From assembly GCA_902756345.1 (NCBI GenBank), contig CACVQR010000010.1, positions 62,001 through 126,000 of the forward strand: a DNA stretch of 64,000 nucleotides, in the 5' to 3' direction. Below are positions 10,594-14,959 of this stretch, in pieces. Within the stretch, counting starts at the first letter, position 1, and each line of letters opens with the position of its first letter. Position numbers and translations under genes: made by a program. Under the pieces are notes generated by a model. The model had not been told where the DNA came from. It did not search any database and saw only the letters and a list, made by a program, of their open reading frames with translations. Source of the stretch: Fibrobacter succinogenes (GTDB taxonomy: Bacteria; Fibrobacterota; Fibrobacteria; Fibrobacterales; Fibrobacteraceae).

Positions 10594-10667
10594 CGGAATA
10601 TAGCTCAGCCTGGTAGAGCGCTTGCTTCGGGAGCAAGAGGTCGTGAGTTCGAATCTCGCTATTCCGA
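10594..10667 (+). tRNA. tRNA-Pro (anticodon CGG)
   Basis: A full cloverleaf can be drawn: acceptor CGGAATA with TATTCCG, D stem GCTC/GAGC, anticodon stem CTTGC/GCAAG with loop TTCGGGA (anticodon CGG), T stem GTGAG/CTCGC with the standard TTCGAAT loop, and discriminator A. The CCA end is not encoded. A long hairpin terminator follows immediately. Pieces of the 3' half are repeated downstream up to 10930 (see repeat entry), the pattern left by integration events at tRNA genes. Confidence 0.95.
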
Positions 10668-10709
10668 TAAGACAAAAAGACACCTTCTAGGGTGTCTTTT
10701 TTGTCTTAT
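10667..10709 (+). terminator. tRNA-Pro transcription terminator
   Basis: A long near-perfect hairpin with an AAAAAGACACC arm, loop TTCTA and a GGTGTCTTTTTT arm, extended outward by ATAAGAC/GTCTTAT. The T-tract lies on the plus strand directly after the tRNA. Confidence 0.85.
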
Positions 10710-10742
10710 ATGGATTTGGCGGGATTGAGAACGAGCGACGAA

Positions 10743-10930
10743 GTCGTGAGTTCGACTAAATTGCCTCATGAACGAAGTGAATTATAGGCAATTTAGAGAT
10801 TTTGGCGAAGCCAAAACCCGGAGGGCAAAATGCGAAATGAAATGAGCATTTTGTCTAATCTCGCGTTCACTGATGAATGCTTAGACAAAAATGAAACGAA
10901 GTGAAGGCTTTGTCTAATCTCGCTATTCCG
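10743..10930. repeat. Interrupted copy of the tRNA-Pro 3' half with four hairpins
   Basis: GTCGTGAGTTCGA at 10743-10755 is identical to tRNA positions 10640-10652. AATCTCGC at 10857-10864 and AATCTCGCTATTCCG at 10916-10930 are identical to tRNA positions from 10652 to 10666. Between these fragments lie four perfect inverted repeats: CTAAATTGCCT (10756-10766) with 10786-10796; TTTTGGC-GAA-GCCAAAA (10800-10816); CAAAATGC (10826-10833) with 10846-10853; and TTAGACAAA (10881-10889) with 10909-10917. The two 19-nt loops share a TGAA(A)CGAAGTGAA core. Removing the hairpins restores a contiguous copy of the 3' half of the tRNA. This resembles an att-site duplication later invaded by small palindromic elements. 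No integrase gene is present. Confidence 0.75.
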
Positions 10931-11249
10931 CTTCCGACTTCGCCGAAAGTGTCTTCAGCAATTCCTTCTTGGTTGCACCTAACGCAAAGAACATCTTGAT
11001 CATCAGTTCAAGGGAAACGCTGGAGTCCGCATGTTCCACTTTGGCGTAACGAGACTGGCTCGTTTTCGCGATAATTGCGGCAGAGACTTGAGTTTCACCA
11101 AGAGACTTCCGCTTGGCAACCAACGCCTTAGCCAAAGCGACCTTCATTTCAACAATCGCCATTTCAGCGGGACTCAACCCCAAAAACTCGTCGACATCCC
11201 CGACTTTCCACCCCTTTTTCTGCAATCTTTCTTTTTTCAACTTATCCAT
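10923..11249 (-). CDS. HTH (XRE-type) antitoxin of a HigBA-like module
   Basis: A 108-residue protein with a helix-turn-helix of the Cro/C1 class at about 45-95 (LGETQVSAAIIAKTSQSRYAKVE region), in the position and size of HigA-type antitoxins that bind their partner and repress their own operon. It starts 3 bp after the toxin stop, with a GGAGG inside the end of the toxin gene, so the pair is translationally coupled in toxin-first order as in higBA. Its own last codons and stop (TAG) lie in the duplicated tRNA-Pro fragment at 10916-10930, so the reading frame ends inside the putative att site. Confidence 0.8.
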   Translation of the reverse strand: MDKLKKERLQKKGWKVGDVDEFLGLSPAEMAIVEMKVALAKALVAKRKSLGETQVSAAIIAKTSQSRYAKVEHADSSVSLELMIKMFFALGATKKELLKTLSAKSEAE

Positions 11250-11252
11250 AAA

Positions 11253-11588
11253 CTAATCCTCCGCATCATAAGTTTTCAATCGTTGACGACACAACTCAAG
11301 AATTTCATCAGGCGTTTTGCTCGTTTTCTTTTCCGTCCATAAAATCACAACTATTGCATCCGTATCAATCCGATAAAATAATCTCCATATTTTATTTTCA
11401 TCTCGAATGCGAAGCTCATGACAATGTGCTCCAATCGACGGCATCGGGCGACTCTGTGGAAGCGACAGATTCATTCCCGATTGCAGTAATCGTAACAGAT
11501 ATCCGGTTTCTATCCTCGCTTTTTGAGATAAAGGTGGTGTCTGCGGCTGTTCATGCAGCCAAACCAATGGTTTATGACTCGGACTCAT
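11253..11588 (-). CDS. Gp49/HigB-RelE-like toxin
   Basis: A 111-residue basic protein of the phage-derived Gp49-like branch of the RelE/HigB superfamily. The conserved core is visible: GAHCHELRIRDENKIWRLFYRI followed by a hydrophobic strand VVILWTEKKTSKTP. In this family the ELR..... WRLFY segment carries the RNase active face that cuts mRNA on the ribosome. It is the upstream gene of a two-gene module with the HTH antitoxin. No Shine-Dalgarno precedes the ATG, but an AT-rich TATATATT lies 10-18 bp upstream on the minus strand. Toxicity is inferred from family only. Confidence 0.82.
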   Translation of the reverse strand: MSPSHKPLVWLHEQPQTPPLSQKARIETGYLLRLLQSGMNLSLPQSRPMPSIGAHCHELRIRDENKIWRLFYRIDTDAIVVILWTEKKTSKTPDEILELCRQRLKTYDAED

Positions 11589-11835
11589 AAAATATATATC
11601 AGATTTGACATAACATCAAGGGTTAAGGTGAATTTTTACACCCCCTATTACTATACACGCTGTTTTGGGACGTTTGAATACCGATTTCACGAAAAATTTA
11701 TTTCTTTTTACAAAAAGAAAAAAATCGCACCGAAATCCATATAATCGGTCGCGAATTGCAGAAAGTATAAATTTGATTATTTATATTTGCCCCAAAATGA
11801 AAGTTTGGTGGGATTTTTATAACCGGAGGTCTTCT

Positions 11836-13035
11836 GTGAAGATTTTTAACGCATTGCGCAAGCGCATAACAGCATCAGCTCAGCCATGTCAGTCTGCAAG
11901 CAGCCTGCCGCGGCATTCGCTTCGCATGTTATTTGCTCTGTCCATTCTTCTAGCTCTGCTCGCAGCATGTGGCGATGAATCCTCTTCTTCCGTTTCGCCG
12001 GAACCTCGCCAGTGCGAGGAACAGAGCGATGACTGCGATGACGTAAGTTCTAGCAGTGAAAAAATTTCCAAAAATTCTTCGAGCTCGCAAAAGAGCGCCG
12101 ATAAGGGCAAGTCTTCTTCTAGCGAGAAGAGCACGAAGGAATCTAGCTCTTCGGCAGCAACCAAGAATTCTTCTAGCTCCGTCAGTGGCGATAAGAGTAG
12201 TTCTTCCGTCAAAAAAGAAGATTCCAGCAGTAGCGTGGAGATTGCTTCTTCCTCTAGTGTAACGCCGAAGTCGAGCAGTACGGTAACTTCGTCTGCGACG
12301 GTTGCGTCTAGCAGCAGCGTTACCTCTTCTGAAACTGTAGAATCGAGTAGCAGTTCGTTCGACAAGGAGTTTAATGGATCGCTTTGGCGTGCTGGCGCGT
12401 ATAAAGCATTTGTCGATACCCGCGATAATCACGAATATTATTATATACAAATTAACGGCAAGGATACGGCAGGCAAGGCTGCTACCATCAAGGTGATGGC
12501 AGAAAACTTGAATGTCGGAGAGTTTATAAGAGGCCGTAAAAACCAAGAAGATGACAATAAAATTGAACGCTATTGCTATGATAATGATACTACCAACTGT
12601 AACAAGTACGGAGGCCTATACCAGTGGGCTGAGATGATGCAGTTGCCGAACCGCTGCAATACGGAAAGCTGCGCCGATTTAATCAAGCCGAATCACCAGG
12701 GAATATGCCCCAGTGGCTGGCGCTTGTTGACCTATAATGACTACTACATTGTGGTGCATGCAGATAATAATGAAGATGGCGTAAAGGGGACCCGTGCTGG
12801 TTGCTTTGGCGGCAGCGATGATACTGGCTATAGCCTTGTTAGCACGGGGTATCTTTGGGATCATTCGTTTACGAACGTAGAAAATGGTACATATTGGCAT
12901 TATCCTGTAGAAAGCGAACAATATAATGGAATTGCTTCTAAGGTAAGTTCGCAATGGAGAACTGCAACTGGAAATTCTTATGATGATTCGTATAAGACTC
13001 AGGGCTTTTCCGTCCGTTGTGTAATGGTTGAATAA
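11836..13035 (+). CDS. FISUMP-domain lipoprotein with serine-rich linker
   Basis: I start at GTG 11836 because GGAGG (11825-11829) sits 6 nt upstream. The longer in-frame ATG starts have no ribosome site. The 399-residue product has a positively charged, atypically long leader, hydrophobic core LFALSILLALLAAC with the lipobox Cys, a linker of about 120 residues dominated by runs of serine, and a C-terminal Fibrobacter succinogenes major paralogous domain. Domain marks are KVMAENLN, a CYDND...C..YGGLYQWAEMM block, GICPSGWRLLTYNDY and a closing GFSVRCV. The domain is cysteine-containing and extracellular with unknown function. It lies in the accessory stretch after tRNA-Pro. Confidence 0.85.
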   Translation: MKIFNALRKRITASAQPCQSASSLPRHSLRMLFALSILLALLAACGDESSSSVSPEPRQCEEQSDDCDDVSSSSEKISKNSSSSQKSADKGKSSSSEKSTKESSSSAATKNSSSSVSGDKSSSSVKKEDSSSSVEIASSSSVTPKSSSTVTSSATVASSSSVTSSETVESSSSSFDKEFNGSLWRAGAYKAFVDTRDNHEYYYIQINGKDTAGKAATIKVMAENLNVGEFIRGRKNQEDDNKIERYCYDNDTTNCNKYGGLYQWAEMMQLPNRCNTESCADLIKPNHQGICPSGWRLLTYNDYYIVVHADNNEDGVKGTRAGCFGGSDDTGYSLVSTGYLWDHSFTNVENGTYWHYPVESEQYNGIASKVSSQWRTATGNSYDDSYKTQGFSVRCVMVE

Positions 13036-13198: not shown

Positions 13199-13784
13199 AG
13201 AAAGCGACGGCGAATGCCTGGCCGCTAAGCGGACAGTAAAGGCCGAAGGCCGTAATTTCTGTGAGTAATAAATGCTTGGTATTAACCAAGCATGTTTGCG
13301 AGAGTGGGGCGTAAGACGAACGGTCTTTGGGCTCGTGCGGAGCAGGCTGAGCCGGAGCGCTGCTTGCTAAGCGTTTTCTCGGATGGAAAGGTGACCCCGG
13401 AACAAGTCCGGGGTGACATCCGGGGGTGTTAGGGGGTGGAACCACCTAGGCGAGGGGGGCAGAAAGACGTTTTGGACGCGAGTAGAAAAGGAGATCCCAC
13501 CTTGGTGGCCATGCGCACTAAGCAACAAGTTGCTAAGTGCTGTCCGCCCGGGTCAAGGACAATCAGCAGGACACGCGGACAAAGCGGCTGCAAGCAGGGG
13601 GATGCCTCCCCCTCCTAAAAATAATCGCAATTTTGCAATCAATTGATTGCACGCATTAGACGTTTCTTGTTTTATCTTTGAGCAAGAATTAAGGAAATTG
13701 CGAAAAATGACAAGACCGCCCACTTTACAACATTTACACCACAGACACTTTACAAACGCAACTAATTGTTGTATATTTAGAGGT
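13199..13784. other. Gene-free accessory stretch with inverted repeats
   Basis: No credible coding sequence was found in these 586 bp. It contains a perfect 9-bp hairpin ATGCTTGGT-ATTA-ACCAAGCAT (13272-13293), a GTGACCCCGGA/TCCGGGGTGAC palindrome (13391-13416) of a type that gives the false peptide HPGLVPGS, and a near-perfect GCACTAAGCAAC/GTTGCTAAGTGC repeat (about 13516-13541). It has a GC-rich first part and an AT-rich last 160 bp that should hold the promoter of the relB-yafQ pair. It looks like decayed or inserted sequence. Confidence 0.6.
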
Positions 13785-14060
13785 ATGAGTACCGTGGTAA
13801 CAAACATTCGAATCGACAAAGAGCTCAAGGCTCAGGCAACCGAACTATTCAACGACTTGGGCTTGACGCTCTCCCAAGCGTTTACGGTTTTCCTGAAGCA
13901 AGCCATTCTGCACCACGGCCTGCCTTTTGCCGTTACAAGACCTCCGTCCAAAGAACTCCTCGAAGCCATCAAGGAAGGCGAAGAACTCGCCCACGATCCT
14001 AATGCAAAAACTTATGCTTCGTTCGATGAACTGCTTGAGGAACTGGACATAAAAAAATGA
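13785..14060 (+). CDS. RelB/DinJ-family antitoxin
   Basis: Start chosen at ATG 13785, preceded by AGAGG. The in-frame extension to 13647 has no ribosome site. The 91-residue protein begins with a ribbon-helix-helix DNA-binding segment (NIRIDKELKAQATELFNDLG, then LTLSQAFTVFLKQAI), the classic RelB/DinJ pattern, and ends in an acidic toxin-binding tail (SFDELLEELDIKK). It neutralises the YafQ-type toxin encoded next and should autoregulate the operon. The stop overlaps the toxin start in an ATGA. Confidence 0.9.
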   Translation: MSTVVTNIRIDKELKAQATELFNDLGLTLSQAFTVFLKQAILHHGLPFAVTRPPSKELLEAIKEGEELAHDPNAKTYASFDELLEELDIKK

Positions 14061-14359
14061 GTTCTAAAGACGGATTCAAGTATAATTTACGGATTACAAG
14101 CCGCTTCAAGAAGCACCTTAAACAAATTGCCAAAAGAAACATAGACAACGTCACAAAGATTAGCAATGTTGTCAATTCTCTGCAAAAAGGGGAAACTCTT
14201 GAAGCTCGATTTAAAGACCATGCTTTAGTCGGAAAATGGAACGGCCATAGGGAATGCCACATTCTTCCCGATCTTTTGCTAATCTACAAGATCGAAGAAA
14301 ACATTCTTATTCTAGAACTTGTAGACACCGGCTCTCACGCCGATTTATTCGGGAAATAA
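14057..14359 (+). CDS. YafQ-family mRNA interferase toxin
   Basis: A 100-residue basic RelE-superfamily protein. It matches the YafQ pattern: LRITSRFKKHLKQIAKR at the start, LEARFKDHALVGKWNGHRECHI in the middle and PDLLLIYKI...ELVDTGSHADLF at the end. The catalytic histidines and aspartate known for YafQ (in DHALVG, ECHI, PD and GSHADL) are all present, so the toxin looks intact. It cleaves mRNA in the ribosomal A site. It overlaps the antitoxin gene by 4 nt, and its stop directly abuts the stop of the convergent FISUMP gene (14359/14360). Confidence 0.92.
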   Translation: MSSKDGFKYNLRITSRFKKHLKQIAKRNIDNVTKISNVVNSLQKGETLEARFKDHALVGKWNGHRECHILPDLLLIYKIEENILILELVDTGSHADLFGK

Positions 14360-14959
14360 TTACCTCACGCACCTGACCGAGAATCCGAAGTTCTTGGGTT
14401 TGGACATGTAGCCGAACGCCATGGACTTGCTGGTGAGGTACCACACGCGGGCAGAGCCGGGAGCAACGCCTTCGGAGGAATCGTCAGCGCTCCAGAAGAA
14501 GGCGAACTTGGCAGTGTTGCCGTAGGTTTCGTCGTCAAAACGGTTGCCGGCGGGCATCGCCGAGAATTTGAGAGTATCGTTGCCGTTGGTGTCGCCCGAC
14601 CAGCCGTAATCTGCTTTGATCAAGTAGCCCGCGTTAAAGTCGGCGCCAGCCGCAGTCCAAAGGCTTTCGAAGTCGGCGTGCGTGGGCAAGCGGAATCCGG
14701 CGGGGCATGCCTTTTTGGCCGCGTCCCAGGTGTAGAGCCTGCCGTAAACCATGCACTGGTCGTCATCATCTTTGTAGCAGAAACTGCCTTCGGTTTTGTA
14801 ATTCAGGTTGTCGCCCAGCCATTCGAGGCCGGCAATTTTCACCGTGCGGTACGTCTGCTTGTCGCGCGGGTCCTTGAACTCGTTTTTCTTTTTGGACTTG
14901 GGCGCCGCCGAGGCCGAAGCAACCAACAAACTCATGAACAGAATCAGCCAAAACTTCAT
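14360..14959 (-). CDS. Secreted FISUMP-domain protein
   Basis: A 199-residue protein with a clear signal peptide (FWLILFMSLLVASASA, cleavage near Ala19) and almost nothing but a FISUMP domain: TYRTVKIAGLEWLGDNLNY, CYKDDDDQCMVYGRLYTWDAA, CPAGFRLPTHADFESLW, a central SAMPAGNRFDD and a terminal FGFSVRCVR. Unlike the FISUMP lipoprotein at 11836 it has no Ser-rich linker and no lipobox, so it should be free in the periplasm or outside. Function unknown. These domains are numerous in Fibrobacter genomes. Confidence 0.85.
   Translation of the reverse strand: MKFWLILFMSLLVASASAAPKSKKKNEFKDPRDKQTYRTVKIAGLEWLGDNLNYKTEGSFCYKDDDDQCMVYGRLYTWDAAKKACPAGFRLPTHADFESLWTAAGADFNAGYLIKADYGWSGDTNGNDTLKFSAMPAGNRFDDETYGNTAKFAFFWSADDSSEGVAPGSARVWYLTSKSMAFGYMSKPKNFGFSVRCVR

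Follow-up and report, generated by a model that had tools for sequence, protein, structure and literature searches.

A probable tRNA-linked repeat with a conserved hairpin fold follows tRNA-Pro(CGG) in Fibrobacter succinogenes

tRNA-linked repeats (TLRs) were described in Escherichia coli in 1978 and are without known function, except for those linked to 5S rRNA genes (PMC8144298). In E. coli, 22 copies are distributed over ten loci, and each copy ends with 18-19 bp from the 3′ terminus of the tRNA or rRNA gene that precedes it (PMC8144298). The 5S-linked RrA, RrB, and RrF arise via read-through of the first terminator and are 3′-processed at the repeat (PMC8144298). RtT (RF00391; rttR of the tyrT operon) is found immediately downstream of a tRNA gene and forms tandem units of approximately 178 bp; in the tyrT/tyrV region of strain K-12, the downstream copies begin at nucleotide 67 of the 85-nt tRNA (AATCCTTCC...).

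Directly behind tRNA-Pro(CGG) in the window (the whole 64,000-nt stretch of F. succinogenes DNA analyzed), a block of hairpins and tRNA-derived copies was found, with the following features:

10594-10667, + strand: intact tRNA-Pro(CGG), source of the repeats (ARAGORN; Rfam tRNA, 68.2 bits)
10667-10709, + strand: intrinsic terminator of tRNA-Pro(CGG) (terminator scan; hairpin in the same position in the relatives read)
10718-10729, + strand: decayed copy, in inverted orientation, of the T-stem/acceptor end (GGCGGGATTGAG; in relatives CGGAATAGCGAGAT), partner in the outer stem (outer helix in the fold; relatives)
10729-10753, + strand: T-arm hairpin GAAC-GAG-CGAC-GAA-GTCG-TGA-GTTC, its right arm being the T-arm copy (fold)
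10743-10755, + strand: direct copy GTCGTGAGTTCGA, 13 nt, exact match to tRNA nucleotides 10640-10652 (5′ side of the T-arm to T-loop GTTCGA)
10750-10864, + strand: conserved core including flanks, match to covariance model R1 (126 bits, E 2.6e-35)
10756-10796, + strand: hairpin H1, 19-nt loop CATGAACGAAGTGAATTAT, tip GA-AC-GAA-GT-GA
10800-10816, + strand: hairpin H2, TTTTGGC-GAA-GCCAAAA
10817-10825, + strand: mini-hairpin H2b, CCC-GGA-GGG, a motif shared with the E. coli RtT repeats (CCCGAAGGG)
10825-10854, + strand: hairpin H3, GCAAAATGC-GAAATGAAATGA-GCATTTTGT
10857-10864, + strand: first tRNA 3′ end copy, truncated, AATCTCGC, 8 nt, exact
10881-10917, + strand: second H3-like hairpin, 19-nt loop AATGAAACGAAGTGAAGGC, arising from partial duplication of the unit's distal portion (31-nt direct repeat, 81%)
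10916-10930, + strand: complete tRNA 3′ end copy, AATCTCGCTATTCCG, 15 nt, exact, from T-loop to acceptor end

As the original prediction had proposed, copies from the 3′ half of tRNA-Pro recur downstream of the gene; these copies are exact and, at 15 and 13 nt, exceed the longest match of 11 nt found when the block was dinucleotide-shuffled 1000 times. Hairpins indeed split the copies, and their removal restores the tRNA 3′ half. The supposedly four perfect hairpins were, however, near-perfect, and the first of them, a palindrome at 10667-10709 that had been counted as a repeat hairpin, was identified by the terminator scan as the intrinsic terminator of the tRNA gene, outside the repeat core. 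Loops of 19 nt occurred in two hairpins (10756-10796 and 10881-10917). The block in this genome holds one core and a partial second copy, with the last tRNA-end copy approximately 250 nt past the tRNA and no genes in between. Its predicted fold (10660-10960) had an energy of -107 kcal/mol, compared with -73 kcal/mol for shuffled sequences (z -6.9).

A DNA search showed that homologous blocks follow tRNA-Pro(CGG) across the genus. The same core is present behind tRNA-Pro(TGG), tRNA-Ser(CGA), and tRNA-Gly(CCC), flanked in each case by the T-arm and 3′ end of that tRNA; at each of the Pro(TGG), Ser(CGA), and Gly loci, the core splits, at the T-loop, a copied 3′ half of the local tRNA. Model R1, built from 18 cores, matched 75 of the 80 genomes of the genus Fibrobacter and 86 of the 168 genomes of the phylum, all within one family (Fibrobacteraceae) and spread over seven genera (Fibrobacter and six others). 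No direct tRNA-end repeats were present behind tRNA-Pro in six genomes from other Fibrobacterota families. The five R1 matches in the present genome were all at tRNA loci, and related blocks were also found behind its tRNA-Pro(TGG) and tRNA-Gly(GCC/CCC). Most R1 matches started 66-84 nt past an intact tRNA gene (Pro, Ser, or Gly) on the same strand or followed in tandem, typically with a period of approximately 160-220 nt, and relatives carried up to about six tandem units (L143). In G158, a genome from another genus that is assembled as a single contig, tandem units were found with a terminator of their own after each tRNA-end copy; the array is therefore not an assembly artefact. Eight matches without an upstream tRNA (one each in G009, G016, G022, and G050, two each in G063 and G064) sat in full-length, nearly full-length, or 5′-truncated tRNA copies that precede an intact copy and have their T-loop interrupted by the core. 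Four further matches (L174, L175, and two in L185) were not placed, as no tRNA was found in the available stretch.

At one locus (L044, G000:C6:111.1-111.8k), a partial tRNA-Pro copy with its T-loop split by the core lies between tRNA-Lys(TTT) and tRNA-Pro(TGG), and an intact tRNA-Pro is then followed by two more units. T-loop-split copies of tRNA-Ser with an altered anticodon arm are conserved in three genomes (L164, L144, and L145 in G009, G063, and G064) and tandemly duplicated in two of them. Behind tRNA-Glu(TTC) (L090, G000:C7:162k; L074), several tandem terminators, each following a short tRNA 3′ end copy GGGTATAAAA, form a second, simpler type of tRNA-linked repeat that has no hairpin core. 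At five loci (L006, L007, L008, L018, and L027), an alternative module, GGCGAGCGTCGC...ATGACCGAGCC, occupies the space between T-arm copy and tRNA end; a similar module was found in a G000 intergenic region without a tRNA (L002).

Conservation of the fold was evident from compensatory changes over 118 distinct cores, in which 94.9% of the cells were paired, vs. 68.7% in shuffled sequences and 32-46% when partners were slid. Changes on both sides were observed in 33 of the 34 pairs, with 955 double-change cells. Because CCC-GNA-GGG makes a mini-hairpin of its own, helix 1 (GTTCGA to the following GAGG) is probably artefactual, as are the first three pairs of helix 5. The loop of this mini-hairpin, H2b, was GNA in 102 of 104 cores, and GNA or GNNA tips on C-G pairs were found in the T-arm hairpin (64 of 76) and at the tip of H1 (81 of 92); among terminators of the same loci, only one of nine triloops was GNA. 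Hairpins with GAACGAAGTGAA and CCCGAAGGG also recur in intergenic repeats away from tRNAs in Gammaproteobacteria, Ignavibacteria, Verrucomicrobia, and Variovorax (L216, L241, L242, L245, L259, L252, L268, L270, L247, and L257). Tip-motif homologues in other phyla were intergenic or coding and were judged convergent; those read did not include any immediately behind a tRNA. TD-2 RNA (Rfam) was likewise set aside, its score of 29.6 bits against 48.7 reflecting a loose hairpin likeness.

Sequence flanking the core changed together with the local tRNA. The 3′ flank of the block was strictly the best match to the tRNA variant of its own genome in 25 of 27 cases for Pro-CGG, 27 of 30 for Ser, and 7 of 7 for Pro-TGG, counts that are inflated by relatedness among the genomes. 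The variant Pro T-arm of G158 (GTGGGTCCGA..ATCCCGC) was also copied faithfully into its repeats. These flanks indicated that repeat and tRNA evolve in concert. In a core tree, which was based on a short alignment and left many forks open, cores clustered by host tRNA, with 14 label changes vs. 49 in shuffles. This clustering indicated that the repeats are inherited mostly in place and that hopping between tRNA families is rare.

Comparison with the E. coli repeats revealed the same architecture at tyrT. The tRNA-end copy starts at nucleotide 59 of 74 in Fibrobacter, which is the same T-loop point as in E. coli tyrT. An inverted tRNA end is present in both (GGGGAAGGAT in E. coli; GCGAGAT or GCGGGAT in Fibrobacter relatives), as are GATGAGAA, the T-arm copy GGTTCGA, CCCGAAGGG in the hairpin chain, and, on the E. 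coli side in the one copy between tyrT and tyrV, GAGCGAAGCGA. All four E. coli tyrT units were matched by R1 (E 1.9e-7 to 1.6e-5 in 1.9 kb), the best with an estimated E near 5e-4 when scaled to the whole genome. Conversely, the Rfam RtT model, which gave 133-138 bits on the E. coli tyrT stretch itself, yielded 31.8-37.6 bits at Fibrobacter blocks in four of seven genomes, each time exactly at an R1 match and below its gathering score of 45. It had no match at E ≤ 1 in the window, none in G000, none in G069 and G158, which carry R1 matches, and none in ten genomes outside the family. The Fibrobacter blocks further differ from RtT in their phylum, in their host genes (Pro, Ser, and Gly tRNAs instead of Tyr), in a longer H1, and, in several arrays, in a terminator for each inner unit. 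With RrA, RrB, and RrF of E. coli they share the position after a first terminator and an end that copies the 3′ end of the upstream RNA (PMC8144298); they differ from these in sequence and host gene. With its position directly behind a tRNA, a 3′ end identical to that of the upstream gene (15 nt, 10916-10930), and one to several tandem units, the Fibrobacter block is by architecture a tRNA-linked repeat, and a TLR variant in another phylum; its Rfam score does not place it in RF00391. The Fibrobacter and E. coli repeats are likely to share a common origin. Convergence on stable hairpins is a less probable alternative that has to be considered because unrelated intergenic repeats carry the tip motifs as well.

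Based on these results, the block is interpreted, with a probability of about 0.68, as the Fibrobacteraceae form of an RtT-like TLR, that is, a recombining array proposed to give rise to a structured, 3′-processed read-through RNA. One unit comprises the terminator of the preceding copy, an inverted tRNA end, the T-arm-copy hairpin, a 100-nt hairpin chain at the T-loop position, and a tRNA 3′ end copy. A strong terminator precedes the unit and no + strand promoter was predicted between this terminator (10667-10709) and the core, so that any RNA from the block depends on read-through. The most likely mode of action would then be that part of the transcripts pass the tRNA terminator, that the tRNA 3′-processing machinery recognizes the duplicated tRNA 3′ end, and that processing releases a stable, structured RNA roughly 150-200 nt long, for which RrB offers a precedent (PMC8144298). 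Recombination between the direct tRNA-end repeats may add, remove, and homogenize units.

Displaced direct copies of a tRNA 3′ end are the usual signature of genomic islands (PMC4383910), and the original prediction had accordingly interpreted the block as an attR-like scar of an integrated island, hit by REP- or MITE-like palindromes and linked to toxin-antitoxin cargo. This reading is now extremely improbable. Nearly all strains carry the block irrespective of cargo: of the 80 genomes of the genus, 75 have it behind tRNA genes no matter what comes next. In addition, the same structure occurs at four or more tRNA types. Fibrobacter blocks share displaced tRNA 3′ fragments downstream of an intact gene with Islander-type islands, but contain a conserved structured core and an inverted copy, and neither an integrase gene nor cargo separates the tRNA from the displaced fragment; no second att copy and no integrase were seen in the neighborhood of the block. 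Like REP/RAYT elements they consist of intergenic palindromes, but R1 found no copy away from tRNA genes in this genome, which also lacks a RAYT (Y1) gene. The loop core GAACGAAGTGAA occurred four times in 3.36 Mb, which does not constitute a dispersed family; only the copy in the block belongs to a tRNA-associated repeat, and the other copies in G000 (L001, L002, and L004) had unrelated contexts. Presence of the block regardless of integrated genes and lack of other genomic copies, the two outcomes named in advance as speaking against a scar, were thus both observed. A HigBA-like pair (HTH_3 and Gp49; 10923-11588, - strand) lies convergent with the tRNA and is found in only some of the block-carrying relatives. 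Further downstream are a RelB/YafQ toxin-antitoxin pair (Pfam; 13782-14356, + strand) and two genes with Fib_succ_major domains (11665-13032 and 14363-14959). The order of an upstream Smr domain gene and the tRNA is kept in the compared relatives; genes downstream of the block match in the closest relatives only.

The main rival to the RNA mechanism is a DNA-level element, in which the unit would act or spread as folded single-stranded DNA and, helped by a recombinase in trans, insert into tRNA genes or their 3′ copies at the T-loop (GTTCGA^ATC). In DNA, mini-hairpins with GNA or GNNA loops on C-G pairs are unusually stable (PMC4686876), and we infer that the tips predominating in the cores, being of this DNA-favored type, would fit a role as DNA better than one as RNA. 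The tRNA-sense strand folded better as DNA in 87 of 108 cores, and tRNA copies with a core-split T-loop, as in the six genomes listed above, are consistent with such insertion. The rarity of hopping between tRNA families argues against it. A Y1 transposase was found in 8 of 31 genomes and is absent from this one, so that present-day mobility of the Y1/IS200 type was rejected, as was a phage or plasmid origin, for which no matches were obtained; a pattern search of viral contigs returned nothing for one form and six loose matches for the other; the three matches that were read were not tRNA-linked. Depletion of G-U pairs was dropped as a sign of DNA, as their fraction was equally low in terminators of the same loci. 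Overall, a DNA-level element is considered unlikely. That TLR and RtT form one ancient, bacteria-wide class of T-loop-splitting hairpins that, folded as single-stranded DNA, swap sequence with the host tRNA gene and in this way rewrite tRNA 3′ halves is a still more speculative extension. It is about as doubtful, or slightly more so, that functionless hairpin repeats arise and are homogenized at tRNA 3′ ends through fold-back DNA synthesis and unequal crossing-over. Such a neutral origin would account for arrays of different length, for concerted flanks, and for the GNA-tipped hairpins that unrelated phyla carry in intergenic repeats; of these repeats, the ones checked were not directly tRNA-linked. 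Loops and a hairpin order that stay invariant across several genera, the many double changes, and the same architecture in E. coli would, however, be hard to keep without selection.

For the preferred interpretation as a tRNA-linked repeat, occurrence of the same architecture in the Fibrobacterota, in more than 100 diverged copies, supplies the covariation needed to define TLR structure. The Fibrobacter copies reveal the unit as a tRNA 3′ half that is split at the T-loop and co-evolves with its tRNA, and the Fibrobacterota provide further lineages in which the function of TLRs may be tested.
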